NCBI GenBank assembly: GCA_951812655.1
Contig: OX638319.1
Coordinates: 186,001-250,000, forward strand
Direction: 5' to 3'
DNA length: 64,000 bases
Origin: an uncultured Candidatus Nitrosopumilus sp.
GTDB taxonomy: Archaea > Thermoproteota > Nitrososphaeria > Nitrososphaerales > Nitrosopumilaceae
The notes under the pieces are model-generated. The model saw nothing but the letters and a program-made list of their open reading frames with translations. It had not been told where the DNA came from and did not search any database. Positions within the stretch are counted from its first letter, which is position 1. Each line of letters begins with the position of its first letter. The position numbers and the translations under genes were made by a program. Positions 16,041 through 35,532 of this stretch are shown one piece after another.

Positions 16041-17951
16041 TTGTTGTTAAAAATACAAAAAATCAAGGTTTTGATCATTGACAATAATCCTGCATTTTTG
16101 AATGTGTTTGCCAAATTGTTGGAAATCAAAGGTTTTGATGTAACTGCTGAAACTTTGTTGAAGACCGGTCTCAAACATCTTGAGAAGAAATCCTTCCCCG
16201 TTGTTTTTGTTGATGCCCCCCTTGACAATTATACTGAAAATCAAATTTTGACATCCCTTGCAAAAAAACACGTTTTTAAAAATTCTAATGTATTCTTATT
16301 CTCATCTGTAGAACTGGATGAAATTGTGTTAAATCAATGGAAAAAAGAGGGTTTGTATTCGTATCTGAAAAAACCTGTAGATCGTAGTACAATAATGGAA
16401 GCATTGAGCGAAGTTCGATCCAAAATTCATGATGATTCGCATATTTCAGGGGAAATCCAAGATGAGGAGGCCACCCCTGAGCAAGTGGCTAAGCTAAATC
16501 AGTTGCAAAAGCAGATTCGGGAGTTGGAATCTCTTGCAACATCTAAATTGAATGAGGAACCTGAATCCGCTGAAGAATCCGCTGAAGATGAGGAGGCCAC
16601 CCCTGAGCAAGTGGCTAAGCTAAATCAGTTGCAAAAGCAGATTCGGGAGTTGGAATCTCTTGCAACATCTAAATTGAATGAGGAACCTGAAGCTGTGCCG
16701 CGGGAGGAACCTGAAGCTGTGCCGCGGGAGGAACCTGAAGCTGTGCCGCGGGAGGAACCTGAAGCTGTGCCGCGGGAGGAACCTGAAGCTGTGCCGCGGG
16801 AGGAACCTGAAGCTGTGCCGCGGGAGGAACCTGAAGCTGTGCCGCGGGAGGAACCTGAAGCTGTGCCGCGGGAGGAACCTGAAGCTGTGCCGCGGGAGGA
16901 ACCTGAAGCTGTGCCGCGGGAGGAACCTGAAGCTGTGCCGCGGGAGGAACCTGAAGCTGTGCCGCGGGAGGAACCTGAAGCTGTGCCGCGGGAGGAACCT
17001 GAAGCTGTGCCGCGGGAGGAACCTGAAGCTGTGCCGCGGGAGGAACCTGAAGCTGTGCCGCGGGAGGAACCTGAAGCTGTGCCGCGGGAGGAACCTGAAG
17101 CTGTGCCGCGGGAGGAACCTGAAGCTGTGCCGCGGGAGGAACCTGAAGCTGTGCCGCGGGAGGAACCTGAAGCTGTGCCGCGGGAGGAACCTGAAGCTGT
17201 GCCGCGGGAGGAACCTGAAGCTGTGCCGCGGGAGGAACCTGAAGCTGTGCCGCGGGAGGAACCTGAAGCTGTGCCGCGGGAGGAACCTGAAGCTGTGCCG
17301 CGGGAGGAACCTGAAGCTGTGCCGCGGGAGGAACCTGAAGCTGTGCCGCGGGAGGAACCTGAAGCTGTGCCGCGGGAGGAACCTGAAGCTGTGCCGCGGG
17401 AGGAACCTGAAGCTGTGCCGCGGGAGGAACCTGAAGCTGCTGAAGATGAGGAGGCCACCCCTGAGCAAGTGGCTAAGCTAAATCAGTTGCAAAAGCAGAT
17501 TCGGGAGTTGGAAAATATTTTGCAGAATAATGCAATTACTGTTGATTCACAAATAGAAGAGCATGTCCATGTAAAATCTGAATTAGGTTCTGATAATCTT
17601 GCTTTTAAAAATATAATTGATGATCTAAAATCATTACAGTCTCAATTTGAATCTGAATCCACTCATCTGTCTGAAATTAAACCATCTGCAAAAATAACTA
17701 TTGAACAGGAGAAACTTGCTAAAAATAAATTAAAAGAATCTCTTGATGACCTCTCTAGATTAAAAAATGAAATTACATCCTTTAGGAAACCTGAAGATTC
17801 TGATGTAAAATCTGATGACGATTTGTTGACAAATGAAAAAAAGCCCAAGGTTTCAAAAAAGTCTTCTCGTATAGGGACAAAAAAGCCCAAGGTTTCAAAA
17901 AAGTCTTCTCGTATAGGGACAAAAAAATCACACAAGACACGAAAGCGTTAA
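16041..17951 (+). CDS. Receiver-domain protein with 31-copy octapeptide array
   Basis: A 636-residue cytosolic protein. Residues 1-125 form a CheY-like receiver: D14 in the acidic pocket, phospho-acceptor D58 in VVFVDAPL, K111 in LKKPVD. Then come two copies of a 35-residue coiled-coil segment (DEEATPEQVAKLNQLQKQIR and onward), a perfect array of 31 EEPEAVPR units (residues 214-461), a third coiled-coil copy, a charged helical region, and a lysine-rich tail with two 14-residue repeats (KKPKVSKKSSRIGT). The start is TTG with a TATA-like AATTAAATA about 25 nt upstream. The array is acidic, about -2 per unit, and Pro-rich, so it should be extended; the tail is strongly basic. Function unknown; a phosphorylation-controlled scaffold is one guess. 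Confidence 0.85.
   Translation: MLLKIQKIKVLIIDNNPAFLNVFAKLLEIKGFDVTAETLLKTGLKHLEKKSFPVVFVDAPLDNYTENQILTSLAKKHVFKNSNVFLFSSVELDEIVLNQWKKEGLYSYLKKPVDRSTIMEALSEVRSKIHDDSHISGEIQDEEATPEQVAKLNQLQKQIRELESLATSKLNEEPESAEESAEDEEATPEQVAKLNQLQKQIRELESLATSKLNEEPEAVPREEPEAVPREEPEAVPREEPEAVPREEPEAVPREEPEAVPREEPEAVPREEPEAVPREEPEAVPREEPEAVPREEPEAVPREEPEAVPREEPEAVPREEPEAVPREEPEAVPREEPEAVPREEPEAVPREEPEAVPREEPEAVPREEPEAVPREEPEAVPREEPEAVPREEPEAVPREEPEAVPREEPEAVPREEPEAVPREEPEAVPREEPEAVPREEPEAVPREEPEAVPREEPEAVPREEPEAAEDEEATPEQVAKLNQLQKQIRELENILQNNAITVDSQIEEHVHVKSELGSDNLAFKNIIDDLKSLQSQFESESTHLSEIKPSAKITIEQEKLAKNKLKESLDDLSRLKNEITSFRKPEDSDVKSDDDLLTNEKKPKVSKKSSRIGTKKPKVSKKSSRIGTKKSHKTRKR
16461..17513. repeat. Three copies of a 69-105 bp coding repeat flanking the array
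   Basis: Copies start at 16461, 16587 and 17445. The first two share 105 bp, the third shares the first 69 bp, encoding DEEATPEQVAKLNQLQKQIR and three more residues. They bracket the 24-bp array, which looks as if it expanded inside the third or last inter-copy linker. Confidence 0.9.
16680..17423. repeat. Perfect 24-bp tandem array, 31 units
   Basis: The unit is GAGGAACCTGAAGCTGTGCC plus GCGG, encoding EEPEAVPR. Thirty-one units follow without a single base change, and a partial unit begins at 17424. The unit is about 67% GC in an AT-rich genome. Because its length is a multiple of three and has no stop in any frame, long false ORFs appear on both strands. No spacers are present, so it is not a CRISPR array. 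Confidence 0.97.
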
Positions 17952-18098: not shown

Positions 18099-18800
18099 CT
18101 ATATCTTTCCTAGCCTGCTTTTGAATTCCGCATATGCTTTTTCATATGATTCCATATCTCCTACATCTGTAAAGCCTTTTTTGATGGAGTAACTGCTTAG
18201 TTTTTTCTTTCGAGTCATTGCTTTTTCGAGAACTTTGTCCATTCCATAAGGCACGTCATTTGGAATCAATGGAAATACTCCTGGTTCCATCACGTAACAA
18301 CCAGTGTTGATATTTGATGTAATTTTTGGTTTCTCTCTCCATGCTGTAATGTTGTCATTTCTATCCGTGTCTATCACGCCATACGGTAGACGCGATTTGT
18401 ATTCGTAAAGGCACATGGTGGCAAATGCTCTCTTTTGCTTGTGTTTTTTTATCATGTTCCTTAGTGAAAAGTCAAATATTGAATCACCATACATGCAAAC
18501 AAAAGTATCGTCGATGAACTCTTCTGCTGTTTTGAGCTGTCCTGCAGTTGCAAGTGGCTTATCTGAAATCGCGTACTCAATGCTTACTCCAAATTCTTCT
18601 CCCTGTTTGAAATAGTCCTGAATATTTCGGCGTAAGTAACTCACACATAGCACAATTGATTTAATGTTGTTTTTCTTCAGCCAGTTAATAGTATGTTCAA
18701 GCAACGGTCTGTCTCCGAGCGGGAGCATTGGTTTTGGAGTGAATAATGTATACGGTTGGAGTCTTGTTCCTAAGCCTCCTGTCAAAATCACCGCTTTCAT
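18099..18800 (-). CDS. Sugar-1-phosphate nucleotidyltransferase
   Basis: A 233-residue GT-A-fold enzyme that activates a sugar 1-phosphate to an NDP-sugar. The N-terminal GGLGTRLQPYTLFTPKPMLP is the nucleotide-binding signature, and VCMYGDS carries the metal-binding Asp. It lacks the left-handed beta-helix acetyltransferase domain of bifunctional GlmU. The divergent glmS gene next door suggests an aminosugar or related substrate, but mannose or glucose 1-phosphate cannot be excluded. An AT-rich divergent promoter region of 210 bp separates the two. Confidence 0.88.
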   Translation of the reverse strand: MKAVILTGGLGTRLQPYTLFTPKPMLPLGDRPLLEHTINWLKKNNIKSIVLCVSYLRRNIQDYFKQGEEFGVSIEYAISDKPLATAGQLKTAEEFIDDTFVCMYGDSIFDFSLRNMIKKHKQKRAFATMCLYEYKSRLPYGVIDTDRNDNITAWREKPKITSNINTGCYVMEPGVFPLIPNDVPYGMDKVLEKAMTRKKKLSSYSIKKGFTDVGDMESYEKAYAEFKSRLGKI

Positions 18801-19010: not shown

Positions 19011-20771
19011 ATGTGTTCAATCTTAGGTTTATCTGGTGATCATGACATTGCACCTACTTTGATCGAATCTCTGAAGAAAATGGAATATCGGGGATATGAC
19101 AGTGTAGGTGTCGCAGTAAAAGATGATTCTGCTATTACCGTAAAGAAAGGTGTTGGCAAGGTAAATGCTGTAAATTCGGATCTTGACATAGATAAGATGT
19201 CCGGATTTACTGGAATAGGTCATACCAGATGGGCTACCCATGGCAGGGTGACAAAAGAAAACGCACATCCGCACATGTGTAATACTCACTCCATAGGAGT
19301 TGTGCATAATGGGATTATTGAAAATTATGTGGAATTAAGAAAAGATCTAGAAAATAATCATGGAGTCACTTTCAAAAGCTCTACTGATACAGAAGTGATA
19401 CCAAATCTCTTACAAATTTACTTCGAAAGATCTAATGATGTTAAAAAAGCAATCATGGATACTGTGAAAAAACTAAAAGGCCATTATGCCTTTGTTGCCC
19501 TTTTTAAAACTGGTGAATTGGTTGGTGTAAAGAATCACGAACCACTAATTTTGGGACTTGGAGATTCTGATCTGTTGCTAACTAGTGATGTTGTTGGTTT
19601 GCCAGAAAATATCTCATCTGCGATATACCTGGAAAATAATCAATTTGTAATAATTAAAGATCGTAAACACAAAATTTTTGATTTTGAAGGCAACGTTGCA
19701 CAGTTTGTAGTTAAAACGATTCCAAAAAATTATCAAAATGTAACCAAAAAATCTCATGAATATTTTACTGAAAAAGAAATCTTTGAACAACCCGAAACCA
19801 TTCTTGTAGCTGGAAATGATGAAGAGCATCTAGATAAAATTTCTGATGTAATCCATAATTCTGATTATGTGTATGTTACAGGCAGTGGAACAAGTTACAA
19901 TATTGCAGTGATTGCAAAATATCTTTTCTCTAAATTTGCTGGAAAAAAAATTGAACACATAATGGCCAGTGAAGCAAAATATTCTTCTCAGTATTTGATT
20001 CCAAACTCCACTCTTTTTGCAATTTCTCAAAGTGGTGAGAGCGCAGATGTTCTTGAAGCTGTTTCAATAGGTAAAAAGAAAAATTCTAAGATTATTTCGA
20101 TGATAAATTCAGAAAACTCATCGCTTGCACGTGAATCTATTTTCTCAATTGGACTTAACTGTGGACCTGAAATTGGAGTTGCTGCAACAAAGAGCTTTAC
20201 ATCACAAATGGCAATTTTGTATAAAATTGTAAATAAATTATGTGACGGTTGCATTGATGTAGATTTTAAAGTCATTTCTGAAGCATACTCTTCCATTCTA
20301 TCCGATGTTTCTGAAATTCAAAAATTGGTAAAAGATATCAAAGACATCAAAAATCTCTTTGTTATCGGTAGAGGGATTCACTATCCGATTGCAAAAGAAG
20401 CTGCATTGAAAATCAAGGAAATCACATATGTTCATGCTGAAGGAATTGCTGCGGGTGAACTAAAACATGGACCCCTTGCATTGATGGATGAAAACGCGTA
20501 TGTGGTTGTAATTAATCCCGATGATGATTCGTATGTTGATAATATATCTACTGTAAATGAAATCAAGTCTCGTAATGCAAAAGTAATTGCTGTATCTAAC
20601 AAACCTGATTCAAATTATGATTATTGGATTCCAATTCCTACAGTTGATCCTGCACTTTATCCTTTGGTTGAAATCATTTCTTTACAGCTTATTTCATACT
20701 ACCTTGCAGTTGAGAAAGGAATTGATCCTGATTACCCAAAAAACCTTGCCAAGTCGGTTACAGTGAAATAA
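19011..20771 (+). CDS. glmS: Glutamine-fructose-6-phosphate aminotransferase (isomerising)
   Basis: A 586-residue GlmS that converts fructose 6-phosphate and glutamine to glucosamine 6-phosphate. The catalytic Cys is residue 2 (MCSILGLSG). The glutaminase domain runs to about residue 215, with HTRWATHG and NGIIENY visible, followed by two SIS domains (TGSGTSYNIA, SQSGESADVLEA, IGRGIHYPIAKEAALKIKEI) and the C-terminal KNLAKSVTVK. It feeds hexosamine synthesis from the product of FBP aldolase/phosphatase. Confidence 0.96.
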   Translation: MCSILGLSGDHDIAPTLIESLKKMEYRGYDSVGVAVKDDSAITVKKGVGKVNAVNSDLDIDKMSGFTGIGHTRWATHGRVTKENAHPHMCNTHSIGVVHNGIIENYVELRKDLENNHGVTFKSSTDTEVIPNLLQIYFERSNDVKKAIMDTVKKLKGHYAFVALFKTGELVGVKNHEPLILGLGDSDLLLTSDVVGLPENISSAIYLENNQFVIIKDRKHKIFDFEGNVAQFVVKTIPKNYQNVTKKSHEYFTEKEIFEQPETILVAGNDEEHLDKISDVIHNSDYVYVTGSGTSYNIAVIAKYLFSKFAGKKIEHIMASEAKYSSQYLIPNSTLFAISQSGESADVLEAVSIGKKKNSKIISMINSENSSLARESIFSIGLNCGPEIGVAATKSFTSQMAILYKIVNKLCDGCIDVDFKVISEAYSSILSDVSEIQKLVKDIKDIKNLFVIGRGIHYPIAKEAALKIKEITYVHAEGIAAGELKHGPLALMDENAYVVVINPDDDSYVDNISTVNEIKSRNAKVIAVSNKPDSNYDYWIPIPTVDPALYPLVEIISLQLISYYLAVEKGIDPDYPKNLAKSVTVK

Positions 20772-22291: not shown

Positions 22292-23836
22292 TTGATGATG
22301 TTGGAAAAATTAATTATTTTATGCTTAGGTCTTGTGCTCTTGATCCCTGTGATGAGTGTACATGCATTCACTGGTGATGTTGAATTGGTAGTCGATAACG
22401 TGGGAATCTCTCCGGCATCACCGAAAAATGGGGAGATGGTATCCATAACTGCCGAAATTCACAATTTGGGTTCAAAAAACACTCGTACTTTTACTAGCAT
22501 GATTACTGCTGCGTATTTTGTAGATGGTGATTTACTTCATATTGATGAAATTGGAAATATTAAACCAGGCGCGTCAAACAAAATAACCATTGCTTCTCCT
22601 CCAGTTTGGAAATCTGAGAACGGTGTTCATGACGTTAAAGTGATAATAGATTATCATGATACATTAAATGATCAATATGATTCCCCGACGAATAATTCTA
22701 TAAACAAAAATTTGCTTGTTATGCCTGTAAGGAGTACTGATATTTCAGTTGAAGCCTCTCCTCAATATCTACTTCAAGGAGAAAAAATGTCCAGAATCAG
22801 TGTATCCCTTCTTGATTCTGATTCCTTTGAATTTTTAAATGACAAAGAAATCGCTTTGAATTTTGATGATAATGACTTTGTTTTGTTAACTGATGACATG
22901 GGGATGATTTCATTCTCAAATGCTCTATCGTCACACCCTCCTGTGAAAGTTATTGCATCGTTTGGCGGTGACGAGATCTATTCTTCGTCTTCATCTTCTC
23001 TGATTTTGTATCAATTTCCATCTGAGGTGTCTTCTGCGTTGGTATTGAAATTGTCTGATTCCAATCTGCATGATTTTGAAAATAATTCTTTTGAAATTGT
23101 CATCTATCAAGATACATACGAAAAACCAATCAAAAAAATACGCCCTGACTCTGCTACTTTGTTTGATTCTGAAACTTTCTGGATTTCTCTTCCTTTTGGG
23201 CATCATTATTTTGCAGAGGTTTATCTTGATGGCAGGATATTTTCTGTAACTGATAAAAAACTATTGCAAGAGTATGGCGTAGTTGTTCAAAAGATAAATG
23301 TCCCTGAAATGGGAAAAATAAAATTTACTGTGGTTGACGAAATGGGACGTTTTGTTACAGATTCTAAAATCACAAATTGGATTTATACGTATTCTGCTGA
23401 GGACGGTTTTACTGACTGGGTAGATGTAATTCCTGTTCTTCGTGAACCATATGTTGCTAAAGCAACACTGATTGATGGACGCGTGATAAATTCTGAACCT
23501 TTCGTAGTATACCCTGGAGAACAAAAAATTATTGAAATTTTAACTTCTGAAAAAACGAGGTATGATGAAATTCCGTCTTGGGTGAAGGCAAACGCTGGTT
23601 GGTGGGCTGATGGTTCAATTGACGACTCTTCTTTTGTTGAGGGGATGCAGTTCCTGATTAGGGAACAGATTGTGTTAGTTCCTGAAACGACTTCGAATTT
23701 TTCTCAGGATTATGATGAAATTCCGTCTTGGGTGAAGGCAAACGCTGGTTGGTGGGCTGATGGTTCAATTGACGACTCTTCTTTTGTTGAGGGGATGCAG
23801 TTCTTGATAAGAGAGGGCTTGATAAAATTATTCTAA
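22292..23836 (+). CDS. Exported beta-rich surface protein with duplicated C-terminal motif
   Basis: A 514-residue secreted protein. A signal peptide (LIILCLGLVLLIPVMSVHAF) is followed by a CARDB-like Ig domain (DNVGISPASPKNGEMVSIT...), more beta-rich modules and two copies of a motif beginning YDEIPSWVKANAGWWADGSI. That motif recurs at the C-terminus of many thaumarchaeal secreted proteins. The start may be TTG 22292 or the ATGs at 22295 or 22298. Its modules match those of the protein at 25019-26338 (for example DGR(I/V) and EPYVA(K/Q)A segments), so the two are paralogues. Probably cell-surface. Confidence 0.8.
   Translation: MMMLEKLIILCLGLVLLIPVMSVHAFTGDVELVVDNVGISPASPKNGEMVSITAEIHNLGSKNTRTFTSMITAAYFVDGDLLHIDEIGNIKPGASNKITIASPPVWKSENGVHDVKVIIDYHDTLNDQYDSPTNNSINKNLLVMPVRSTDISVEASPQYLLQGEKMSRISVSLLDSDSFEFLNDKEIALNFDDNDFVLLTDDMGMISFSNALSSHPPVKVIASFGGDEIYSSSSSSLILYQFPSEVSSALVLKLSDSNLHDFENNSFEIVIYQDTYEKPIKKIRPDSATLFDSETFWISLPFGHHYFAEVYLDGRIFSVTDKKLLQEYGVVVQKINVPEMGKIKFTVVDEMGRFVTDSKITNWIYTYSAEDGFTDWVDVIPVLREPYVAKATLIDGRVINSEPFVVYPGEQKIIEILTSEKTRYDEIPSWVKANAGWWADGSIDDSSFVEGMQFLIREQIVLVPETTSNFSQDYDEIPSWVKANAGWWADGSIDDSSFVEGMQFLIREGLIKLF
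23561..23803. repeat. Two 93-bp exact repeats encoding the WVKANAGWWADG motif
   Basis: Copies at 23561-23653 and 23711-23803 are identical, with a 57-bp unique linker. Identity at third codon positions points to a recent internal duplication. Confidence 0.93.
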
Positions 23837-23951: not shown

Positions 23952-25022
23952 TTATTCTTTTTTGCTATTGTGATGTTCAAATATTTTTTTTACAGTGTTG
24001 TCTCCATATGTGATTTGGATTTCATATACTCCATCCCCGTATTCCAAAAACTCATTGTATTCTCTAGACACATCTGGTACTGAAAAAAAAGAGTTTACTG
24101 GAATTGTGAATCCATCTGGAGTTGTTAACCTGGTACTTACCAAATTGTGGTGTGTAAGTTCAATAAATCTCTCTGAATTCTCTGTAGTTATTCCGTATCT
24201 GATTCCGTTTGATGTATTAGAATCATCGATCCACATCCCAAAATTATTATCTTTTTTTGCTATGTCTCCTGTGGTAAAGTCATATGTTGCATGTGTTCTT
24301 GGACCTCCTAGAGGAACTGAGTCATATAACAAATAATCAACTGATAGTAAATTATTCCCATTGGAAAAATGATATCTGTCATTGAGATGGAAAAATGTAA
24401 CAAACCAACCATTTTCGTGTACCGGAATGTCTTTCAATATTTGCCTGCCGTTTAATTTTATGTCTATATCTAAAAATGGACTCTCCGAAATTATTTGCCC
24501 TTCTTGAATTGAATCTCCGCTGACTATCCTTCCTGTTTGCTCAAATTCATTATCTGAAACTCCTTTCTTGATTTGGGCCTTCGTAAAATCAAATTTACCA
24601 TAAACTGTAACCTTGTCTCGGAAGCTATAATGATCTTTGTCTGTCCATATCAGTAGCGGTGCAATTGATTTGTCCGGAGAATTTTTTCCAAGCCTGGGAT
24701 CCTGGTGACTTGCCATGTCTGGCATATCTAATTCTTCTCCTATGAACCTGCAACAGAAATTCTCATTTCTGATCTTTATTTCTTTACCTGCAATTGGTTT
24801 ATGTTCACATATTTGTTCCAAATCTACATAGTCACAAAACCAGTGGTTGTAGCTATCTGAAATAGAGCTGACTCTCCATCCTGCGCATTCAGCATATTGG
24901 GGGAATACTGTACAGAAATTAAAACTTCCGGTAGTGGCAGCTTCAACCGTATCCAAACTGTAATTTGAATATGCTAAAAGAGATACTAAAATGCATATTG
25001 CTATCAATAACGGTCTGGTCAT
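23952..25022 (-). CDS. Exported hypothetical protein, 356 aa
   Basis: A signal peptide (RPLLIAICILVSLLAYSNYS) precedes a Cys-rich region of about 90 residues (FNFCTVFPQYAECAGW, WFCDYVDLEQICEH, ENFCCRF) and then beta-rich modules. Its start overlaps the stop of the upstream gene by 4 bp (ATGA), so the two are co-translated and probably act together at the cell surface. The cysteines are likely disulfide-bonded outside the cell. No family recognised. Confidence 0.75.
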   Translation of the reverse strand: MTRPLLIAICILVSLLAYSNYSLDTVEAATTGSFNFCTVFPQYAECAGWRVSSISDSYNHWFCDYVDLEQICEHKPIAGKEIKIRNENFCCRFIGEELDMPDMASHQDPRLGKNSPDKSIAPLLIWTDKDHYSFRDKVTVYGKFDFTKAQIKKGVSDNEFEQTGRIVSGDSIQEGQIISESPFLDIDIKLNGRQILKDIPVHENGWFVTFFHLNDRYHFSNGNNLLSVDYLLYDSVPLGGPRTHATYDFTTGDIAKKDNNFGMWIDDSNTSNGIRYGITTENSERFIELTHHNLVSTRLTTPDGFTIPVNSFFSVPDVSREYNEFLEYGDGVYEIQITYGDNTVKKIFEHHNSKKE

Positions 25023-26338
25023 CTGGTTTCATCCCCTCTGATGATCGTGATGACCTTTTTTTCGTCTGATTCAATTAGAAATGGTTCTGACCAAACTATT
25101 TCCCCGTTGGGAAAACTTGCTTGTGCCACATATGGTTCATTGGATGTAAATGTTGGTAGAACTTTTATCCAGTCTGTAAGTCCACGCTCATTTGTACTGT
25201 CTGAGTAAATCCATGTTTTTATATTCACATTATTTTGAGGTTCTTCCAAACCATTGACCACTCTAAATTGTATCTGGGACGATTCTGACATGTTGACTTC
25301 TTTTTTTATTACTTTGTTATTTGAAAAATAATGTTGAAATGCATCAATTATTCTTCCTTCGAGATATATCTCTGCAATGTAAGTGTGATTGGATGGCAAA
25401 GTCATCATGAAAAGATTTTCAATTGGAATTCTCTTCTCTTCATGAGTGTCTGTGGTGATTTTTTCAAAAACGCTGTCATAATTATCTTGAAATAGAACAA
25501 TTGTTAATGGTAAATTTTGCAAATCATTCTTTGAGTGTTGTTGGTAGGTCTCTATCGCTAGTGCTGCTTCCCCATCGCTAATCTTAACGGGAAAAATTTC
25601 TTGTATTTGACTTGTTACAAATGAATCCTCATTTGCATGCGTTAAAATTTTAATTGGCGTCTCTTTGAATGCCGTTTCAGTATTCAGCCAAAACTGTCCA
25701 TTGCTGTCTGAGATTACTTTACTTTGACTTATTCCTTCTATCTCAATTGTCATTTCTTTATATTTTACTTTTTCATGAAAAATGTCTGTAATTTCACCTG
25801 TGATTGAAATTTCCTGGATGTCTTTTTTATCGTTATAGCGTTGGTACGTGTCAAAGTTAACTATTGAGGGAAGGTTGCTGTCAATTTGAAATTTTTTTTG
25901 GACAATGTTGTTTTCCGGATTATCTCTTAGGTGAGACAAAGTATCGTGATAATTGATAATGACTGTAACTTCATACGTTCCTGGATTTGCGTTAAATGCG
26001 TATCCTGAAGAAATCACCTTCCCGTTTTCTAATCCTGGCAAAATATTCTCTAGTAAGCTAATTTGCACAATTTCTCCATTTACGATGTATGCGACTGTTA
26101 CTGCATCTGTCACATCTACTGTAGAGATGATGCCTGCATTGTATACTGACCCGTAAATTGTTACATTTTCTCCCTTCTTTGGGTGTTCTGGCTCGATCCA
26201 AATGTCATTTAATACTATGTCTGCAGAATTAATTTCTCCAAACAGATTAACTGATTCTGTCAATCCAAATGATGGGGAAATGGCAAATGAACACAAAATA
26301 CAAAATATCATAAGTATTCTAAGCGTGTTTGTTTGCAT
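25019..26338 (-). CDS. Exported CARDB-like surface protein, 439 aa
   Basis: A signal peptide (LRILMIFCILCSFAISPSFG) is followed by a CARDB-like domain (IVLNDIWIEPEHPKKGENVT) and beta modules that match the 514-residue protein at 22292 along most of its length, up to EPFLIESDEKKVITI. It lacks that protein's two C-terminal motifs. First gene of a two-gene unit with the 356-residue exported protein. Likely surface-located. Confidence 0.78.
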   Translation of the reverse strand: MQTNTLRILMIFCILCSFAISPSFGLTESVNLFGEINSADIVLNDIWIEPEHPKKGENVTIYGSVYNAGIISTVDVTDAVTVAYIVNGEIVQISLLENILPGLENGKVISSGYAFNANPGTYEVTVIINYHDTLSHLRDNPENNIVQKKFQIDSNLPSIVNFDTYQRYNDKKDIQEISITGEITDIFHEKVKYKEMTIEIEGISQSKVISDSNGQFWLNTETAFKETPIKILTHANEDSFVTSQIQEIFPVKISDGEAALAIETYQQHSKNDLQNLPLTIVLFQDNYDSVFEKITTDTHEEKRIPIENLFMMTLPSNHTYIAEIYLEGRIIDAFQHYFSNNKVIKKEVNMSESSQIQFRVVNGLEEPQNNVNIKTWIYSDSTNERGLTDWIKVLPTFTSNEPYVAQASFPNGEIVWSEPFLIESDEKKVITIIRGDETR

Positions 26339-26450: not shown

Positions 26451-29400
26451 TTGATTGATGCCATGATTCTTAGGTATATTGTTATTGCTTTGATACTCGT
26501 TGTTGCTCTCTCCACATCTCTGTTTATATCCTATGAACTTCAGGTGTCTCCTAATTTACGTACACAGCACTTGTCTTTAGATGATGTTTTCTCTACATGT
26601 AATGAAATGGATCAACTCCTGCAATCTAATGGCTTGTCATATGAGCAAATGATTCGATTGCTGAACCTAAACGAAATTAACACCCATTTGAATTCTAAAG
26701 AAATTCAAATAGTTGAGCAATGCTTGCAAGGAAAGCTACCTGAACTTAGTTCGTATCTAATTCCACAAAAAATAGGTTTTCTGGAAGGGATTGGACTTCA
26801 TGATGCAAAAGGCATGGCAAAGATAATCACAATTGAAAAAAATACCTATTTGAGGTTAGAACATTTTGAAATCAGTTATGAGCCTAAGGTTGGCCAGAAT
26901 TTCCAAATACCTGAACTGCATGTGTATTTGAGTAAAAACAATTCTTTGACACCCGAGATTTACCTGGACAAGCTAAAAACTGGCTTGGGTGGTAAAAATT
27001 ACAAATTACCTGATGTGGATTTTAACACATATGGAACCGTGCTGCTATTTGACAAAATCACAAACGAGTCTTTTGCCAAAATCAGTTTAGGAAGTCCTTC
27101 TTATGTCTCAGACTTGTTTTATGGTTTTCTAGATAATTCAAAAAATGTGGATTATCCGAAGGCATCATCTCAGATTATCTTTGAACGATATGGATTCTTT
27201 GAGGGTATGGATGATTATGTTGCAAAAGGAATTGCAACTATTGATTATATTGAAGATGAGGGTGAATTAAAAATTTCAAATTTTGAGATCTCCCAGGGTG
27301 ATGATCTTAGGTTGTATCTTACGGATGATGGAATTGTTAAGAACAATGGCTATTGGACGTTTGATTCTTTTGGTAATGTGTACGTGAGCAGCGGTAACTC
27401 CGATGAGGTCCTCAGGTATGCCCCTGACGGGACGTTCAAGGACGTGTTTGTGAGGTCTGGCAGCGGCGGACTTTCGCTGCCCACCGGAATCACTTTCGGA
27501 CCTGACGGCAGCCTGTACGTGAGCAGCGGTAACTCCGATGAGGTCCTCAGGTATGCCCCTGACGGGACGTTCAAGGACGTGTTTGTGAGGTCTGGCAGCG
27601 GCGGGCTTGACGGTCCCAAGGATCTCATCTTCGGACCTGACGGCAGCCTGTACGTTAGTGGTAGCAACGATGTATTTCGTTTTGACGGGGAATCTGGCAA
27701 ATTCGTGGATGTTTTCGTTAGACATGGCAGCGGCGGACTTTCGCTGCCCACCGGAATCACTTTCGGACCTGACGGCAGCCTGTACGTGAGCAGCGGTAAC
27801 TCCGATGAGGTCCTCAGGTATGCCCCTGACGGGACGTTCAAGGACGTGTTTGTGAGGTCTGGCAGCGGCGGGCTTGACGGTCCCAAGGATCTCATCTTCG
27901 GACCTACTGAAAAGTATCTTTATGTTGCGAGTTTTCTAACTGATGAAATTCTTCGTTATGATGTTAATGGCGATTTTGTTGATAACATAATCAGCTCACA
28001 CAACGGTCAGATAACAAATCCAAAATATGCCCTGTTCGGACCTGACGGCAGCCTGTACGTTAGTGGTAGCAACGATGTATTTCGTTTTGACGGGGAATCT
28101 GGCAAATTCGTGGATGTTTTCGTTAGACATGGCAGCGGCGGACTTTCGCTGCCCACCGGAATCACTTTCGGACCTGACGGCAGCCTGTACGTGAGCAGCG
28201 GTAACTCCGATGAGGTCCTCAGGTATGCCCCTGACGGGACGTTCAAGGACGTGTTTGTGAGGTCTGGCAGCGGCGGGCTTGACGGTCCCAAGGATCTCAT
28301 CTTCGGACCTGACGGCAGCCTGTACGTGAGCAGCGGTAACTCCGATGAGGTCCTCAGGTATGCCCCTGACGGGACGTTCAAGGACGTGTTTGCGCATTCT
28401 GATGAAATCCATTCTCCAAATGGAATCACTTTCGGACCTGACGGCAGCCTGTACGTTGTCAGCAATTTATCCGATGAAATTCTTCGTTTTGACGGGGAAT
28501 CTGGCAAATTCAAGGACGTGTTTGCCAGCGGCGGCGGATTGTCTAATCCTTTTGATGTTTCTATAGGTGAGTTCGGTCTATTTTACGTGAGCAGCGGTAA
28601 CTCCGATGAGGTCCTCAGGTATGCCCCTGACGGGACGTTCAAGGACGTGTTTGCGCATTCTGATGAAATCCATTCTCCAAATGGAATCACTTTCGGACCT
28701 GACGGCAGCCTGTACGTTGTCAGTAATACAAACGCTGAAATTTTAAAAATCAACGATACACCTGATGGTTTGTCTTCCATCGAGAAATTCGTCTTTGATG
28801 CATCTTCAGCGTTGTATCAACCAAAACATATTGAGATGTATGATGGAAAAGTTTGTGTTAGCAGTTATCTGACAAATGATATTTTTTGTTATGATGAAGA
28901 TACAGGACAAAGTTTAGGAAAACTCACGGTGTCTTTTGATCGTACTCTTATCAGTAGAGAAAATTCTATCGCTGGTCCTGATGGCGAAATATACGTATCT
29001 GATAATCTTAGAAATGAAATTTTAAGATATGATGGCGTTACAGGTCTTTTTTCTGATGTTGTTATTAATACTGAAAATGATCAATTGCGTAGTCCATCAT
29101 ACCTCACGTTTGGTCCCGACGGTAATCTATACGTGAGCAGTGATAATAAAATTTTTAGATTTAATGGGATTACTGGTGATTTTATAGATGTATTTGTGTC
29201 CCAAAACAAGGCTGGGATAAATAATCCTCAGGGCATTGCCATTGATGATGATTTTATTTATGTAAGCAGCTATGACAATAATCGCGTTTTACGGTATAAT
29301 TCTGTAAATGGAATGTTTGTGGACGAATTCGTCAAAAGTAGAGACCATGAATTACTTAGACCTACGGGGAGTCTGCTTGATCAAAACGGTAATTTGTATG

Positions 29401-32330
29401 TCGCAAGCTCGGGTTCGAATAAAATCCTACAATATGAAACCCCGTCTGGTAAATTTCTAAATGAAATCATCTTGCAAAATTCTCCTCATGGGTTGGCATT
29501 AAATGATGACTTTCTTTTCGTTAGCCTGTTTGATTCAGATGAGGTATTATCATATGATCTGAAATCCCTTCAGTTTTCTTCACTGATTTCTGGGTTTGAT
29601 GGACTTGATGGTCCAGAGGGATTGGTTTTTGATCATGTAAACGACATTCTCTACGTGAGTAGTAGTCTGAACAACAAAATCCTGGCATATGATGTAAAAC
29701 TAGGAGTGGCATATGATGTGAAAGTAAGTTCTGGTGACGGGTTATTGCAAAAGCCTCATGGCTTGACTATGGATGACGGTATGTTGTTCATATCTAATAA
29801 CAATAACAATGAAATTCTAAAGTATGATCCCCAAGTAAATGAAATGCAGAGTTTTGTCCATGACACTGGCGAATTGATTAGGCCTGGAGGGATCACATTC
29901 GGCCCCAGCTCCAATCTTTTCATGATCAACGAAAACGATAATCTGATTTATGAATATGACGTATCTATGGGTCAATTGCTGGGGGTTTTTACCGATTCAT
30001 CTGATTCGATGAATGCCGGCTTGTCTGATGTTGGATTGCGCAGCATCATTTTCACAAAGGATGGCAAGTATCTTTTTGCAAGTGATCCATCTGCAAATAA
30101 AATTTTGGCATATGATGTTGCTAGGAATGCATATCTTGATAGCTTTTTTCTAGACGATGTTGATCTTAACTATCCCACAGATCTGACTTTGGCACCTGAT
30201 GCCAAATCTGTTTTTGTAATAAATTACGGTGACAACACAATTTCTAGTTTTACAGTTTCAGGAAATTTTAATGGGGTTTTTGCAAATCCTGGTAAAGATG
30301 GAATGACCGAATTACGGGAAATTCGATTCGGTCATGACGGAAATCTGTATGTTATGGGTGGTACTTACGGTGATATTTTTAAGTATGATGGGGATACCGG
30401 GGAGTTTTTGGGAATTTATGATGATGGCGGCACTTATCTTGGAAAAATTAATGAAAATACGCTAGGATCTAAGTACGCGTTTAATGAGGTTGATACTAGA
30501 CAAAATAACGTTGTAATGCTGTATGATCATTTTTTGGAACGTCCGTATGCCAAGATTGTCCTATATGATTCAATGGGTATCATGACTCCTCTGAATAAGG
30601 CCTGGAATTCACTTGTATCTAACTTTGTTGTGATTTCTGAACCTAAATTGAAATCTCAAGAAATAATTAAAAATACTGGATTTTTCGTGGGTCTGAATGA
30701 TGTGACTGCGTATGGCCAAGTAATTACTAAAAGTGTCGATTTGACATCGATGATTACGATAGAAAACTTTTCATTTGATTATGACGAAAATGAATACGTT
30801 TCAACGCTAAAATCTAACAATGTTTTTCAGACTGGGCCTAATCTCATTGCATGCCTGGTCTCCGCTTCATCTGATCTTGTATGTGATGATTCGAAAAATT
30901 CTATTGAATTGGGTAAACTGAATGTTAATGCTGGTGACAACAGATACTTTGTACATAATGTTGACATTGAAAAATATCCTGTAATTGTAATCTATGACAA
31001 AACTACTGAAAAATCATTTGCAAACATTCCTTTGAGGGACTATGGGATAATGCGTATATCTGGAGAATCTTTTACTGATTGGCTTTACCATGACTTTGCT
31101 ATAATTCCAATGGTTTCTATAATCATAATGATATTTCCAATCTTTTTTGATTACACTCGCGGAGCATTCAAAATAATCTTTTTCAGTATCTATTTTATTT
31201 TTGGCAACAAGAAAAAATTACACGATGTACTCATGTCCAACAAAAAAATCACCATTATGATACCTGCACATGATGAAGAAGTGGGAATAAAGGAATCGAT
31301 AGAATCTGCTCTGGCAACAGATTATCCGAATAAAGAAATCATTGTAATTGATGATGGTTCCACAGACAATACTTGGATAATTGCAAATTCCTTTGCTGAG
31401 AAAGGACTGATCAAATTAATTCACCGTGATGCCCCTATGCCTCCTGCAAAAAGCTCAAAGGCTTCTGCATTGAATCATGGGATTAACTATGCTACTGGTG
31501 ACTATGTGTTATGTATGGATGGTGACACGCTTTTGGATAAGGATGCGCTAAAAAACTCGTCCAAGTATTTTGATGATGAACAGTTTGTCGCATTTTCCGG
31601 AAATGTGAAGATCAAGGCTGGTGATGGCGGTGTCGATAACCTCTTGACGCGTTTACAAAAATATGAGTACATGGTTGCCATTGAGCTTGGGAGGCGTTTC
31701 ACATCTGTATTTCAGATACTCTTTGTTATATCTGGAGCCTTTGGAATTTTCAAAAAAGATCTAATCAAAGATGTTCACACATTTGACAAGGATACGCTCA
31801 CTGAGGATTTTGATTTAACTCTAAAATTCAGAAAAACCCGTGGAAAAATTCGTTTCGTTCCTGACTCTATAGCTTACACCTACTGTCCTTCTAGCTGGTC
31901 CGAATGGAAAACACAAAGAAATCGTTGGGCATACGGTCAATTCCAAACTCTGTCAAAAAACAAAAATCTCCTTTCGTCTAAATTCCCATTAAAAGACAAG
32001 GTCTCTTTCGTTGACATGTTTGTCTTGGATGTGATCATTAGCCTACTTTTCCCGATTGGACTGACCGTCTTGGGGATAATTTCTGTCATTATGATCATGG
32101 GGGATAATCTGCATGTTCTGGTTTATCCACTGGCGCTGATAATGTCGATATTTTTGATATTGGAAGTGATCATCTTTTCGTTTGCATCGCTGTACTCTGG
32201 TAAATCTAGTGCTCTCAAACTGATTTATCTTGTGCCCTTGATGACTTTCTTTTATAGACCTTATCTGAAAATGATCAATGTTCGAGGTCATCTTAGGGCG
32301 TACTTCAAGAAAAACGCTTCATGGGATTGA
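26451..32330 (+). CDS. Giant membrane protein: DM13-like domains, 23-blade NHL array and GT2 synthase
   Basis: A 1,959-residue protein. Residues 5-28 are a membrane anchor; about 107-212 is a DM13-like domain (GFLEGIGL..., ELHVYLSK..., AKISL). A second DM13-like domain starts near 253 (GFFEGMDD) and breaks at YLTDDG near 290. About 1,030 residues of NHL-like blades follow (I count 23), then the rest of that domain (YLGKINENTLGSKYAF, about 1325-1373). A third DM13-like domain is at 1410-1531. Then membrane helices (1543-1583), a family 2 glycosyltransferase (KITIMIPAHDEE, MDGDT, TEDFDLTLKF, QRNRW; about 1597-1825) and C-terminal helices. The GT motifs are those of processive synthases of the cellulose, chitin or hyaluronan type. 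Start TTG, or ATG 26463; TTTTTATAAATC lies upstream. Product and partners unknown. Confidence 0.88.
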   Translation: MIDAMILRYIVIALILVVALSTSLFISYELQVSPNLRTQHLSLDDVFSTCNEMDQLLQSNGLSYEQMIRLLNLNEINTHLNSKEIQIVEQCLQGKLPELSSYLIPQKIGFLEGIGLHDAKGMAKIITIEKNTYLRLEHFEISYEPKVGQNFQIPELHVYLSKNNSLTPEIYLDKLKTGLGGKNYKLPDVDFNTYGTVLLFDKITNESFAKISLGSPSYVSDLFYGFLDNSKNVDYPKASSQIIFERYGFFEGMDDYVAKGIATIDYIEDEGELKISNFEISQGDDLRLYLTDDGIVKNNGYWTFDSFGNVYVSSGNSDEVLRYAPDGTFKDVFVRSGSGGLSLPTGITFGPDGSLYVSSGNSDEVLRYAPDGTFKDVFVRSGSGGLDGPKDLIFGPDGSLYVSGSNDVFRFDGESGKFVDVFVRHGSGGLSLPTGITFGPDGSLYVSSGNSDEVLRYAPDGTFKDVFVRSGSGGLDGPKDLIFGPTEKYLYVASFLTDEILRYDVNGDFVDNIISSHNGQITNPKYALFGPDGSLYVSGSNDVFRFDGESGKFVDVFVRHGSGGLSLPTGITFGPDGSLYVSSGNSDEVLRYAPDGTFKDVFVRSGSGGLDGPKDLIFGPDGSLYVSSGNSDEVLRYAPDGTFKDVFAHSDEIHSPNGITFGPDGSLYVVSNLSDEILRFDGESGKFKDVFASGGGLSNPFDVSIGEFGLFYVSSGNSDEVLRYAPDGTFKDVFAHSDEIHSPNGITFGPDGSLYVVSNTNAEILKINDTPDGLSSIEKFVFDASSALYQPKHIEMYDGKVCVSSYLTNDIFCYDEDTGQSLGKLTVSFDRTLISRENSIAGPDGEIYVSDNLRNEILRYDGVTGLFSDVVINTENDQLRSPSYLTFGPDGNLYVSSDNKIFRFNGITGDFIDVFVSQNKAGINNPQGIAIDDDFIYVSSYDNNRVLRYNSVNGMFVDEFVKSRDHELLRPTGSLLDQNGNLYVASSGSNKILQYETPSGKFLNEIILQNSPHGLALNDDFLFVSLFDSDEVLSYDLKSLQFSSLISGFDGLDGPEGLVFDHVNDILYVSSSLNNKILAYDVKLGVAYDVKVSSGDGLLQKPHGLTMDDGMLFISNNNNNEILKYDPQVNEMQSFVHDTGELIRPGGITFGPSSNLFMINENDNLIYEYDVSMGQLLGVFTDSSDSMNAGLSDVGLRSIIFTKDGKYLFASDPSANKILAYDVARNAYLDSFFLDDVDLNYPTDLTLAPDAKSVFVINYGDNTISSFTVSGNFNGVFANPGKDGMTELREIRFGHDGNLYVMGGTYGDIFKYDGDTGEFLGIYDDGGTYLGKINENTLGSKYAFNEVDTRQNNVVMLYDHFLERPYAKIVLYDSMGIMTPLNKAWNSLVSNFVVISEPKLKSQEIIKNTGFFVGLNDVTAYGQVITKSVDLTSMITIENFSFDYDENEYVSTLKSNNVFQTGPNLIACLVSASSDLVCDDSKNSIELGKLNVNAGDNRYFVHNVDIEKYPVIVIYDKTTEKSFANIPLRDYGIMRISGESFTDWLYHDFAIIPMVSIIIMIFPIFFDYTRGAFKIIFFSIYFIFGNKKKLHDVLMSNKKITIMIPAHDEEVGIKESIESALATDYPNKEIIVIDDGSTDNTWIIANSFAEKGLIKLIHRDAPMPPAKSSKASALNHGINYATGDYVLCMDGDTLLDKDALKNSSKYFDDEQFVAFSGNVKIKAGDGGVDNLLTRLQKYEYMVAIELGRRFTSVFQILFVISGAFGIFKKDLIKDVHTFDKDTLTEDFDLTLKFRKTRGKIRFVPDSIAYTYCPSSWSEWKTQRNRWAYGQFQTLSKNKNLLSSKFPLKDKVSFVDMFVLDVIISLLFPIGLTVLGIISVIMIMGDNLHVLVYPLALIMSIFLILEVIIFSFASLYSGKSSALKLIYLVPLMTFFYRPYLKMINVRGHLRAYFKKNASWD
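27381..28722. repeat. Homogenised NHL-blade coding repeats
   Basis: Blade units of about 132-135 bp are reused as identical DNA cassettes. The segment encoding YVSSGNSDEVLRYAPDGTF appears six times. A longer block, 27630-27905, recurs exactly at 28035-28310 (276 bp) around a unique blade. These cassettes are GC-rich against AT-rich blades downstream in the same gene. Confidence 0.95.
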
Positions 32331-32343
32331 CTGTGTTTAAATT

Positions 32344-33369
32344 TTATTTTTGAATTTTATACAATTTGCTCTTTTTCCATAATGCCATTACGTCGATGAA
32401 ACTATTTCCACAACTAAGGCATGAAAACTTGAACAACGGTCGGTCAAATCTTTCATTACAGCTGGAGCAAATGTGGTATCCTGCAAATTCTCTATAGTCA
32501 GTACCTACTGAGCCTATTTGCTTGTTACATTTGGGGCATGTCTTGTAGTCTGAACCTTTCACATAAATCTCCCCGCAATCGTAATGCTCTACAAGATCTT
32601 TTTGTTGGAAGTTGGTACCTCCACATTGTGGGCATTCAGATGTGTATGTGATGTTTGTCGAATTGCATTGACTACATGCTGCTTCGGATATTTCTTTATG
32701 TGGGGTGATTAATTTACGACTCAATGCATTATTGAATATTTTTTCCGCTCTGGTTCTCTCTATATTGTAAATATCTTTGAACTTTGTAAATGTAATTTGG
32801 TTATGTGATAGTAGTAGTGATTCTAGTTCTGTCGCCGGCACTTCTTTTGGTTCTGTCGCCGGCACTTCTTTTGGTTCTGTGATTATTGCTTTTGTCCTTG
32901 ATTCGGACTCTTCATCTTCGTTTGTTTGTTGGAAACATTTTTTGAAGTCTTCTAAGATGAAAGGCTTGTGTAGAGTTGATGTGATGCCTATGTCAAATAA
33001 TTTTAGTATTTCTGGATTGTCTCTCTCTTTTGCAGATGAGATTATCGCCTTTGCATTGGGTTGAATTTCTAGTATTTCTTTGATTATTTTTTTAAGATTT
33101 TTGTTTGAACCACTGTCTATGATAATTGGTGTGTTTATGTCATTGCTTATGAAATGTGAAAAAATCTGAATTCCTTCTTTTGCTTCTTTACATATCTGAA
33201 TGTTTTCAAAACCTACCTTGACGAGAAACTTACGCATCATAATTGAAATTGTGCTGTTTGGTTCTATGACCACTATGTCAGTTTTTGAAATTGGCAGATC
33301 TGATAGTTGCTCGATTTGAAGTAGATCTATATTCTCTTGCTTGTTTTTTTCGATAACATTTATTGACAT
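32344..33369 (-). CDS. Receiver-like protein with winged-helix and zinc-ribbon output
   Basis: A 341-residue protein. Residues about 29-150 resemble a receiver domain with Asp in PIIIDSG, Ser in AIISSAKE and Lys in LHKPF; the acidic pocket has Glu (VVIEPN). A linker holds a tandem EPKEVPAT repeat of 24 bp per unit, then a helical DNA-binding-like segment (LSHNQITFTKFKDIYNIERT). The C-terminal 110 residues carry about six CxxC knuckles (CSQC, CPQC, CPKC, CSSC, CLSC), as in thaumarchaeal cysteine-rich output modules such as TackOD1. Probably a signalling protein with a DNA- or protein-binding output. Confidence 0.75.
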   Translation of the reverse strand: MSINVIEKNKQENIDLLQIEQLSDLPISKTDIVVIEPNSTISIMMRKFLVKVGFENIQICKEAKEGIQIFSHFISNDINTPIIIDSGSNKNLKKIIKEILEIQPNAKAIISSAKERDNPEILKLFDIGITSTLHKPFILEDFKKCFQQTNEDEESESRTKAIITEPKEVPATEPKEVPATELESLLLSHNQITFTKFKDIYNIERTRAEKIFNNALSRKLITPHKEISEAACSQCNSTNITYTSECPQCGGTNFQQKDLVEHYDCGEIYVKGSDYKTCPKCNKQIGSVGTDYREFAGYHICSSCNERFDRPLFKFSCLSCGNSFIDVMALWKKSKLYKIQK

Positions 33370-33479: not shown

Positions 33480-34220
33480 TTACTGATATTTGTGATATGG
33501 TTGAATATTTTCCAATTCGTAGTTTCCGCCTTCCTTTAACTCCATACGTGTATTTGTGGCTGATTTAAAAAGTTCTTTTGAAACCGTTGTTATTTCATCA
33601 TATGACTTGATGATGTGCTGGGTAGCTGTGGATACATTGTCTATGATCTTTTCGGTTTCACTTATGCTATTCAGCGTGTATATTTTTAATCTGTTAAAAT
33701 CACTTGTGGCAATTTCTAGTTTTTTTGATGTGATTTCTTCTATTTTCTTTGTCACGTTGAGATTACTTTGTGCTTTTTCTGCTTCTGAAGTGATCTTAAC
33801 AAGATTGTTTACTAAGTCATTTTGTGATTGTTCCAGATATTTGTGATCTAGACTTTGTCCTATTTCTTTTATTTTTTCTATTGCAATATTGATTTTGTTG
33901 ACTTCTATTTTTAATTCTGATACCTTTTGATTGTCTAACTCCTCCTTTCTTCTAGTTTCTTCTAGTTTTTCTTCTAGTTTTTCCATCTCATCTTTTTTTC
34001 TAGATAGTCTTATTTTCATTTCCTCTGTTGAAAGCTTCATTTCATGTGTGATATTGTGTGCATTCTCCATTGCCTTCGCCGTCTCATCTATTCTTCTTTT
34101 CATCTTTTCAATAGATGTGATGATCTCCGATGAGCTACTCCGATGAGCTACATGCGTGATTTCGTCTTCAATAATCGTGTTTGATATCGTCTCTACTTGT
34201 TCTCTTTGTTGTAGAGCCAT
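33480..34220 (-). CDS. Long coiled-coil protein, 246 aa
   Basis: Almost entirely heptad-patterned, with a strongly charged centre (DEMEKLEEKLEETRRKEEL) and a C-terminal half resembling the helical hairpins of signalling or chromosome-associated coiled coils. No membrane segment or enzymatic domain. It sits between the receiver/zinc-ribbon gene and the second fbp copy, all on the minus strand. A short duplication, GATGAGCTACTCC, lies near its 5' end. Function unknown. Confidence 0.7.
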   Translation of the reverse strand: MALQQREQVETISNTIIEDEITHVAHRSSSSEIITSIEKMKRRIDETAKAMENAHNITHEMKLSTEEMKIRLSRKKDEMEKLEEKLEETRRKEELDNQKVSELKIEVNKINIAIEKIKEIGQSLDHKYLEQSQNDLVNNLVKITSEAEKAQSNLNVTKKIEEITSKKLEIATSDFNRLKIYTLNSISETEKIIDNVSTATQHIIKSYDEITTVSKELFKSATNTRMELKEGGNYELENIQPYHKYQ

Positions 34221-34306: not shown

Positions 34307-35532
34307 TTGCTTTTTCTAATCCGGATCTTCGTAGTTTTCCTTCTTCTCGCCCTTGGAATCGTTTCCGCCTGCTCCCTCTATCGGCTTCATCTTTTCCTTG
34401 AGTACGTCCATTCTCGCATTGTATCCCTCGGCGTATTCCAGCTCTGACGGAACCAGGGTTGCGGGATGTATGAATCCCTGGCTTCTTATCGTGATTGCCT
34501 TCTTTGTGGCAATCTCCCTTACGTAGTCCCAGTCCGGAGTCGAGAATCCGTCAAACGGACCCGTGAACTTTCCTTCGTGCATGCTGAATACGAGTGACTC
34601 TACGATTGGAATGCAGAAATTTATCGTTGCAGCTGAATTGAGCTTGACTGGCATGAGTGGCATGTTGTGACTTCCCCTTGTGTTTCCTGCCACAAAGTGG
34701 GGGTTGTTAAAGACGCTTCCGACCTCTTCTGTTGCCGGAAACAGCTTCTGAGTTCTGACCAGCAGAATTGGATCGTCTTTTCCGACGTATGTTCCTGCGA
34801 TGTTGTGCAGTCTGTCCGTAGATGCCGCAAGGATGGGCTCTCCGTCCTTTGTGGTGACGGTATCCACGACGTATCTTCCGGGATACATCAGTGCTGCCTC
34901 CAGGGTTGGCTTGTCCTTCCACAGCTCCATTGCTGCGACTTTGCCTTCCTCGACGTCCATGACGTTTACGATGACCCCGTCTGCAAGGTTTCTGTTTACG
35001 ATAAGTCCTGTGTTGCTTAGTGCGTCTACGAACATTCTGTAGACTGGATAGTTAAATGCGCCTGGCTCCGTCTTGTCTGCTGCAAATACGGTAAACGCCT
35101 CGTTTTGTCTCTCCTCGAATTCCATTTCTGCGACTCCCGGACCCATTCCCTTGATGTTTCCTGAGAAGGAGTCCTTGAGAAGGTCCTGTCCTGCGCCATA
35201 GAGTCCCTGCTTCTTTGCGACCTTGGTTCCTGCCATGAACGCGTCCCATGCCATCTTGTGGATTTCCTTGTTGTCCACTCCGTGCGTGTGTGACATGACG
35301 ATGTGGACATCGTCACCGCAATATCCTATGTAATAGTCGATAAGCAAATGTTTGGAATTGTTTACGGTGTCCCTTACTGCTTGAATTAGGGCATCGCTTG
35401 GTCTGGTGTGGCCTCCTATTCCGCCAACGTCAGCTTTGATAACAGAAACTGTGATCTTCATGGTTGTACCCTTCGCTACCTTGATTTATGTGTATTTTTT
35501 TGAAATCGCGTTTTGGATGATGACTTTGCCGA
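34307..35532. repeat. Direct repeat copy 2 (1,226 bp) containing fbp
   Basis: Copy of 14653-15878 in the same orientation. The single observed difference is T at 35487, 26 bases upstream of the ATG. The DNA beyond each end is unrelated to that around copy 1. Confidence 0.95.
34316..35461 (-). CDS. fbp: Fructose-1,6-bisphosphate aldolase/phosphatase, copy 2
   Basis: Encodes the same 381-residue protein as 14662-15807, with no synonymous changes that I can see. Here the divergent neighbour is the EF-1alpha gene. The perfect coding identity means either a very recent duplication or continuing gene conversion. Expression may differ because the only base change lies where a leaderless promoter would place its TATA box. 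Confidence 0.95.
   Translation of the reverse strand: MKITVSVIKADVGGIGGHTRPSDALIQAVRDTVNNSKHLLIDYYIGYCGDDVHIVMSHTHGVDNKEIHKMAWDAFMAGTKVAKKQGLYGAGQDLLKDSFSGNIKGMGPGVAEMEFEERQNEAFTVFAADKTEPGAFNYPVYRMFVDALSNTGLIVNRNLADGVIVNVMDVEEGKVAAMELWKDKPTLEAALMYPGRYVVDTVTTKDGEPILAASTDRLHNIAGTYVGKDDPILLVRTQKLFPATEEVGSVFNNPHFVAGNTRGSHNMPLMPVKLNSAATINFCIPIVESLVFSMHEGKFTGPFDGFSTPDWDYVREIATKKAITIRSQGFIHPATLVPSELEYAEGYNARMDVLKEKMKPIEGAGGNDSKGEKKENYEDPD

Follow-up and report, generated by a model that had tools for sequence, protein, structure and literature searches.

Domain organisation of the giant protein

Can a single archaeal polypeptide make a surface polymer and also handle it outside the cell? This question is raised by a gene of an uncultured Candidatus Nitrosopumilus sp., a marine ammonia-oxidising archaeon whose genome (G000) is one contig of 1.67 Mb; the stretch of 64,000 nt analysed here, called the window below, covers positions 186,001-250,000 of the forward strand of contig OX638319.1 (GCA_951812655.1). 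Little has been learnt so far about surface polymers in ammonia-oxidising archaea, and surface-attached Nitrososphaera viennensis raises the expression of glycosyltransferase and exported deacetylase genes (PMC11561398). The gene, whose product we refer to as the giant, occupies 26451..32330 (+) as one open frame of 1,959 codons, counted from a TTG, with no internal stop. An ATG at 26463 (MILR...) is kept in the two closest orthologues, so that translation probably starts there, 12 bp downstream of the TTG.

The original prediction was of a fusion of DM13-like domains, NHL blades and a processive GT2 synthase, with an ectodomain of more than 1,500 residues. Pfam reports all three elements on the protein (NHL/Vgb/SGL propeller repeats, DM13 and GT2), and the GT2 call was right. 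The architecture is richer than first described, with three DM13 domains and, inserted in the second of them so as to divide it in two, an array of about 23 NHL-type blades. From the N-terminus, all on the + strand, the gene encodes a hydrophobic segment that could be a signal anchor or a signal peptide (26463..26540), DM13-1 (residues 103-213, 26757..27089), the N-terminal half of DM13-2 (residues 238-294, 27162..27332), the beta-propeller array (residues 304-1324, 27360..30422), the C-terminal half of DM13-2 (residues 1326-1371, 30426..30563), DM13-3 (residues 1401-1528, 30651..31034), a transmembrane helix (31095..31160), the GT2 catalytic domain (31248..31937) and C-terminal transmembrane helices (31995..32285), the membrane helices being supported by both hydropathy and the structure model. 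Hydropathy places hydrophobic segments at the N-terminus, at residues 1543-1573 and, several of them, beyond residue 1849; the approximately 1,500 residues between the first two are therefore most simply read as an ectodomain of about the size announced, and the GT2 domain as cytoplasmic. The ectodomain is joined directly to GT2 via one transmembrane helix.

The propeller identity of the array is supported by Pfam (NHL, PF01436, 69.8 bits against a cut-off of 20) and by structure prediction; the blade count is about 23 both in G000 and in the orthologue from G165. Since the whole array sits between the two halves of DM13-2, its two ends should lie near each other. The AlphaFold2 model of the ectodomain is of low overall confidence (pLDDT 65, pTM 0.36), and therefore no binding site can be named; within it, residues ~828-1130 form a closed propeller that matches seven-bladed propellers with a Z of ~31 and the archaeal surface-layer YVTN propeller 1l0q with a Z of 30. 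The highest-ranked Foldseek matches of the array, LRP2 among them, are propeller strings of low TM score and were set aside as being without functional meaning. Near-identical tandem repeats of 135 bp, detected by TRF and by blade identities, cover the region of blades 2-8 (27379..28392, +). The DNA of blades 2, 4 and 7 is identical within G000 and ~98% identical within G165, compared with 79-82% between both genomes, and the blade pairs 3/6 and 8/10 follow the same pattern. This excess of within-genome over between-genome identity indicates that part of the array is being homogenised inside each genome, via gene conversion or repeated duplication.

The GT2 domain and its motifs

The Pfam GT2 match covers residues 1600-1829 (E 2e-28). 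The D-x-D, TED and QxxRW motifs named in the original prediction are present as DGD at residue 1690, TED at 1784 and QRNRW at 1822, together with DDGS at 1634, and DDG, DGD, TED and QxxRW do not vary among five giants and a shorter form from G191 described below. The top NCBIfam model is PgaC/IcaA (TIGR03937; E 2e-51, 175 bits), which shares with the giant the intact motifs and the transmembrane helices on both sides of GT2. An assignment to PgaC/IcaA proper was nevertheless rejected: the score is far under the equivalog cut-off of 422 bits, and no PF01522 deacetylase (PgaB/IcaB-type) was found in the G000 genome. PgaC also has no 1,500-residue ectodomain. A GlcNAc polymer, should that be the product, is probably handled otherwise than in the Pga system.

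The GT2 model (pTM 0.60) has the Pyrobaculum N-glycan mannosyltransferase PcManGT as its top PDB fold match (6yv7; Z 33, rmsd 2.5, 334 residues), an enzyme of minimal cellulose-synthase-like shape; it also matches hyaluronan synthase (Z 28 over 365 residues) and BcsA (Z ~26). With hyaluronan synthase (7sp6, 8snc) and BcsA the giant has in common the DxD, TED and QxxRW motifs and, judging from the model, it may also share their GT2 fold and arrangement of transmembrane helices (Z 25-28), but identity is ~18% and neither carries a fused ectodomain. The giant could instead resemble PcManGT in being non-processive, transferring sugars to a glycolipid or a lipid-linked N-glycan, with an ectodomain that docks it to the S-layer or to acceptor glycoproteins; the rank of PcManGT as top fold match, its place among the top PDB sequence matches to this GT2 and the resemblance of the modelled propeller to 1l0q all point that way. 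However, PcManGT has no ectodomain and, in the printed alignment, lacks both TED and QxxRW, which are invariant in the giants, and at the family level the sequence matches polymer synthases, so that we consider a non-processive enzyme unlikely. A polymer synthase is favoured because the giants possess the two motifs that PcManGT lacks, and thus appear to side with the processive enzymes. That the giant is a membrane-embedded polymer synthase of the PgaC/HAS/cellulose-synthase type, fused on its exit side to a very large ectodomain, is a credible proposal, of about even probability.

A response regulator linked to the putative synthase gene

Convergent with the synthase gene lies a gene for a response regulator with the thaumarchaeal output domain TackOD1 (32344..33369, -; identified by Pfam), and this linkage is conserved; no paper on TackOD1 was found in the literature searched. 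In both G030 and G035 the top match of this regulator is the one adjoining their 612-residue PgaC-like GT2, and in G322 a bare GT2, near those of the giants by profile score, overlaps a gene of the same regulator type. These three genomes argue that the link between GT2s of this type and TackOD1 regulators extends beyond the giant. The G030 and G035 locus resembles that of the giant in that a related GT2 adjoins a related regulator, and differs in the absence of an ectodomain, in the separate deacetylase next to the GT2 and in the clade to which the GT2 belongs. At two loci of other Nitrosopumilus (L042:7552-12130 and L043:6848-11390) the 612-aa GT2 is followed by a secreted protein bearing a pair of polysaccharide deacetylase domains and by a convergent TackOD1 regulator, an organisation that is likely Pga-like. 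The 612-aa type was found in none of the giant-bearing genomes checked; mutual exclusion of the two was considered and dropped, as about one fifth of the genus (a rough count) carries the 612 type and 9 or 10 absences are then not significant.

The regulator bears on another possibility, namely that the ectodomain serves chiefly in sensing or adhesion and gates the GT2 when it binds an external ligand or a surface, so that polymer is made on contact. The large, repetitive propeller ectodomain would suit such a role, as would the signalling protein encoded next door, the propeller sensor ectodomains listed by Foldseek (e.g. BT4663) and the concerted evolution of the blades near the N-terminal end, which is often seen in surface-exposed repeats. 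Yet the chain itself holds no known signalling element, and the regulator is a separate cytoplasmic protein; we regard a predominantly sensory or adhesive ectodomain as rather improbable.

The DM13 domains: a split domain and a missing cysteine

On the whole giant, DM13 (PF10517) scores 44 bits, above the Pfam cut-off of 25. Taken singly, DM13-3 reaches 26.0 bits, DM13-1, which was also placed by alignment, is under the cut-off with 23.5 bits (fragment E 9e-5), and DM13-2 is recognised solely by profile comparison. With its halves rejoined, DM13-2 aligns to DM13-1 with an hhalign score of 66 (E 7e-12), against a top score of 16 for 50 column-shuffled controls, and DM13-3 aligns to DM13-1 with E 5e-9 and to DM13-2 with E 5e-11. 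Both halves of DM13-2 are below pLDDT 50 in the AlphaFold2 model; the DM13 identity, which the original prediction had staked on the fold, is upheld by the profile comparison.

The cysteine of the IWC/IYC signature, which we take to be nearly invariant in DM13 and its proposed redox site (Pfam description), is replaced in the alignment of the giant's three domains, which read LFD, LYD and IYD. It is also missing from all three DM13 domains of the G165 giant; of the giants aligned, only those of the G016 clade retain it, in their DM13-1, and the two stand-alone DM13 domains aligned carry IWC/IYC. A stand-alone DM13 protein of the source genome (G000:C1:1580817-1581086, L007) has a long run of EEKSMM repeats ahead of a DM13 domain in which the cysteine is kept. 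The redox or electron-transfer role first ascribed to these domains is hence disfavoured by the absence of the cysteine. Although the Pfam family bears the name 'Electron transfer DM13', the neighbouring genes that were scanned include neither a DOMON nor a cytochrome partner, and a role of the domains in electron transport for oxidative modification of the polymer or cell surface is very improbable.

Polymer handling is the more natural reading by analogy, because insect proteins with DM13 and DOMON domains bind and order chitin. Knickkopf, which has two DM13 domains and a DOMON domain, strongly binds colloidal chitin and is needed for chitin order, while the functions of its DM13 and DOMON domains are called unclear and its chitin-binding domain is unsettled (PMC4140639). 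Like the giant, it has tandem extracellular DM13 domains, and these are linked with chitin, a GlcNAc polymer, once that has been made (PMC4140639); unlike the giant, it is a separate GPI-anchored or membrane protein with a DOMON domain and with neither GT2 nor propeller.

Relatives and a possible assembly route

A two-sequence profile searched against 250 Nitrosopumilaceae genomes recovered full-length giants from G000, G016, G190, G075 and G165, i.e. from four genomes besides the source, and partial ones at contig ends from G188, G187, G036 and G161. The G165 protein is 73% identical to that of the window, and those of G016, G190 and G075 are 38% identical to it. When 400 genomes of the class were searched, one further fragment with the same domain order was recovered, from a genome of another family (G360); it lies on a 3.6 kb contig in a draft assembly, so that contamination is possible. 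The named matches to the giant are Nitrosopumilus MAGs throughout, and a contig profile scan of the loci retrieved found no GT2 joined to NHL or DM13 apart from the Nitrosopumilus giants. Repeats are able to mislead assemblers and the drafts G036, G161 and G187 do break at them, but the full-length frame is present in the separately assembled one-contig genomes G000 and G165 and in several drafts, so that chance, a broken frame and mis-assembly were ruled out, the single 1,959-residue chain of the original prediction is borne out, and an artefact of assembly or annotation is scarcely conceivable.

Smaller relatives of the giant also exist. G191 encodes a 795-residue form made of two DM13 domains, a transmembrane segment and GT2, without propellers; its DM13 domains are unreported by Pfam and were called from giant-built profiles (E 7e-9) and alignment. 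G082 encodes a bare GT2 of 412 residues. In the tree, the GT2s of the giants, the G191 form, a second GT2 of G165 and those of G082 and G047 group together in a single clade (99/97) from which the remaining PgaC-like GT2s of the family are separate; the place of the bare copy of G165 within this clade is weakly supported (82/62). Because relatives with two DM13 domains and GT2 and relatives consisting of the bare enzyme are both found, a stepwise build-up can be proposed, in which the simplest reading is that a bare GT2 gained first DM13 domains and then propellers; losses are also possible.

Proposed role and comparison with known systems

Judged from its sequence, the giant probably makes and handles a cell-surface polymer. 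Its GT2 domain would polymerise a nucleotide-sugar at the cytoplasmic face, most likely into a GlcNAc-containing beta-glycan, and the chain would pass through the enzyme's own transmembrane segment to emerge beside DM13-3. The DM13 and propeller domains may then hold, order or tether the polymer at the cell surface or S-layer, much as Knickkopf does with chitin in insects, and the timing may be set by the TackOD1 regulator. The original suggestion, a single protein able to make a surface polymer and to sense or grip it, is consistent with this anatomy, the best reading being that the giant would grip what it makes. A more specific version, possible though doubtful, is that of a self-contained synthase and matrix organiser, in which the polymer exits the GT2 pore directly into a DM13/propeller assembly that belongs to the same polypeptide and would hold and shape the polymer. 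If true, the giant would be an archaeal counterpart to two insect proteins that are separate, chitin synthase and Knickkopf, and DM13 domains could be modules for handling beta-glycans and not electron carriers. The giant links polymer synthesis and possible handling outside the cell in one chain, and it offers a direct handle on DM13 function.

In the literature searched, neither DM13 nor NHL was found together with GT2, in agreement with the initial view that the architecture is undescribed. In Firmicutes, a secreted GH18 or polysaccharide deacetylase is fused to a membrane GT2 in a single chain; the ectodomains of those fusions are enzymes, whereas that of the giant consists of DM13 domains and propellers and is far larger. 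The giant is thus a variant of the membrane GT2 synthases with a new architecture and a putative function.

Gene neighbourhood

Immediately upstream of the giant are genes for a secreted CARDB-like protein (25019..26338, -), a secreted 356-aa protein (23952..25022, -) and a secreted CARDB protein (22292..23836, +), all syntenic with the giant, the first and third being also identified by Pfam. Beyond the response regulator lies a gene for a coiled-coil-like protein (33480..34220, -), which adjoins the regulator in G165, G187 and probably G191. The order PGK, CARDB, two secreted proteins, giant, TackOD1 regulator, coiled-coil-like protein, FBPase is identical in G165; most of these neighbours also occur in G016, G190, G075 and G187, and the giant and its regulator are inverted relative to the others in G016, G190 and G075. 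Upstream of PGK, 5-8 kb from the giant, are a gene for a GlmS-like glucosamine-6-phosphate synthase of the UDP-GlcNAc precursor pathway (19011..20771, +; SIS and GATase domains) and a sugar nucleotidyltransferase-like gene (18099..18800, -; PF00483).

The neighbourhood is flanked by an exact direct duplication of 1,180 bp (14653-15832 and 34307-35486) that contains an identical FBPase gene. G165 likewise has two FBPase copies, which lie 18.9 kb from each other, agree exactly over 1,240 bp and have 86% similarity to those of the window, and FBPase is single-copy in six one-contig genomes that have no giant. A response-regulator protein encoded at 16041-17951 contains an eight-residue repeat made by ~32 perfect 24-bp units (16680-17439), and a shorter relative of 282 aa takes the matching place in G165. 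The 3' end of the CARDB gene holds two direct repeats of 104 bp (23561-23814, 97%), and a similar C-terminal motif recurs in secreted proteins of relatives.
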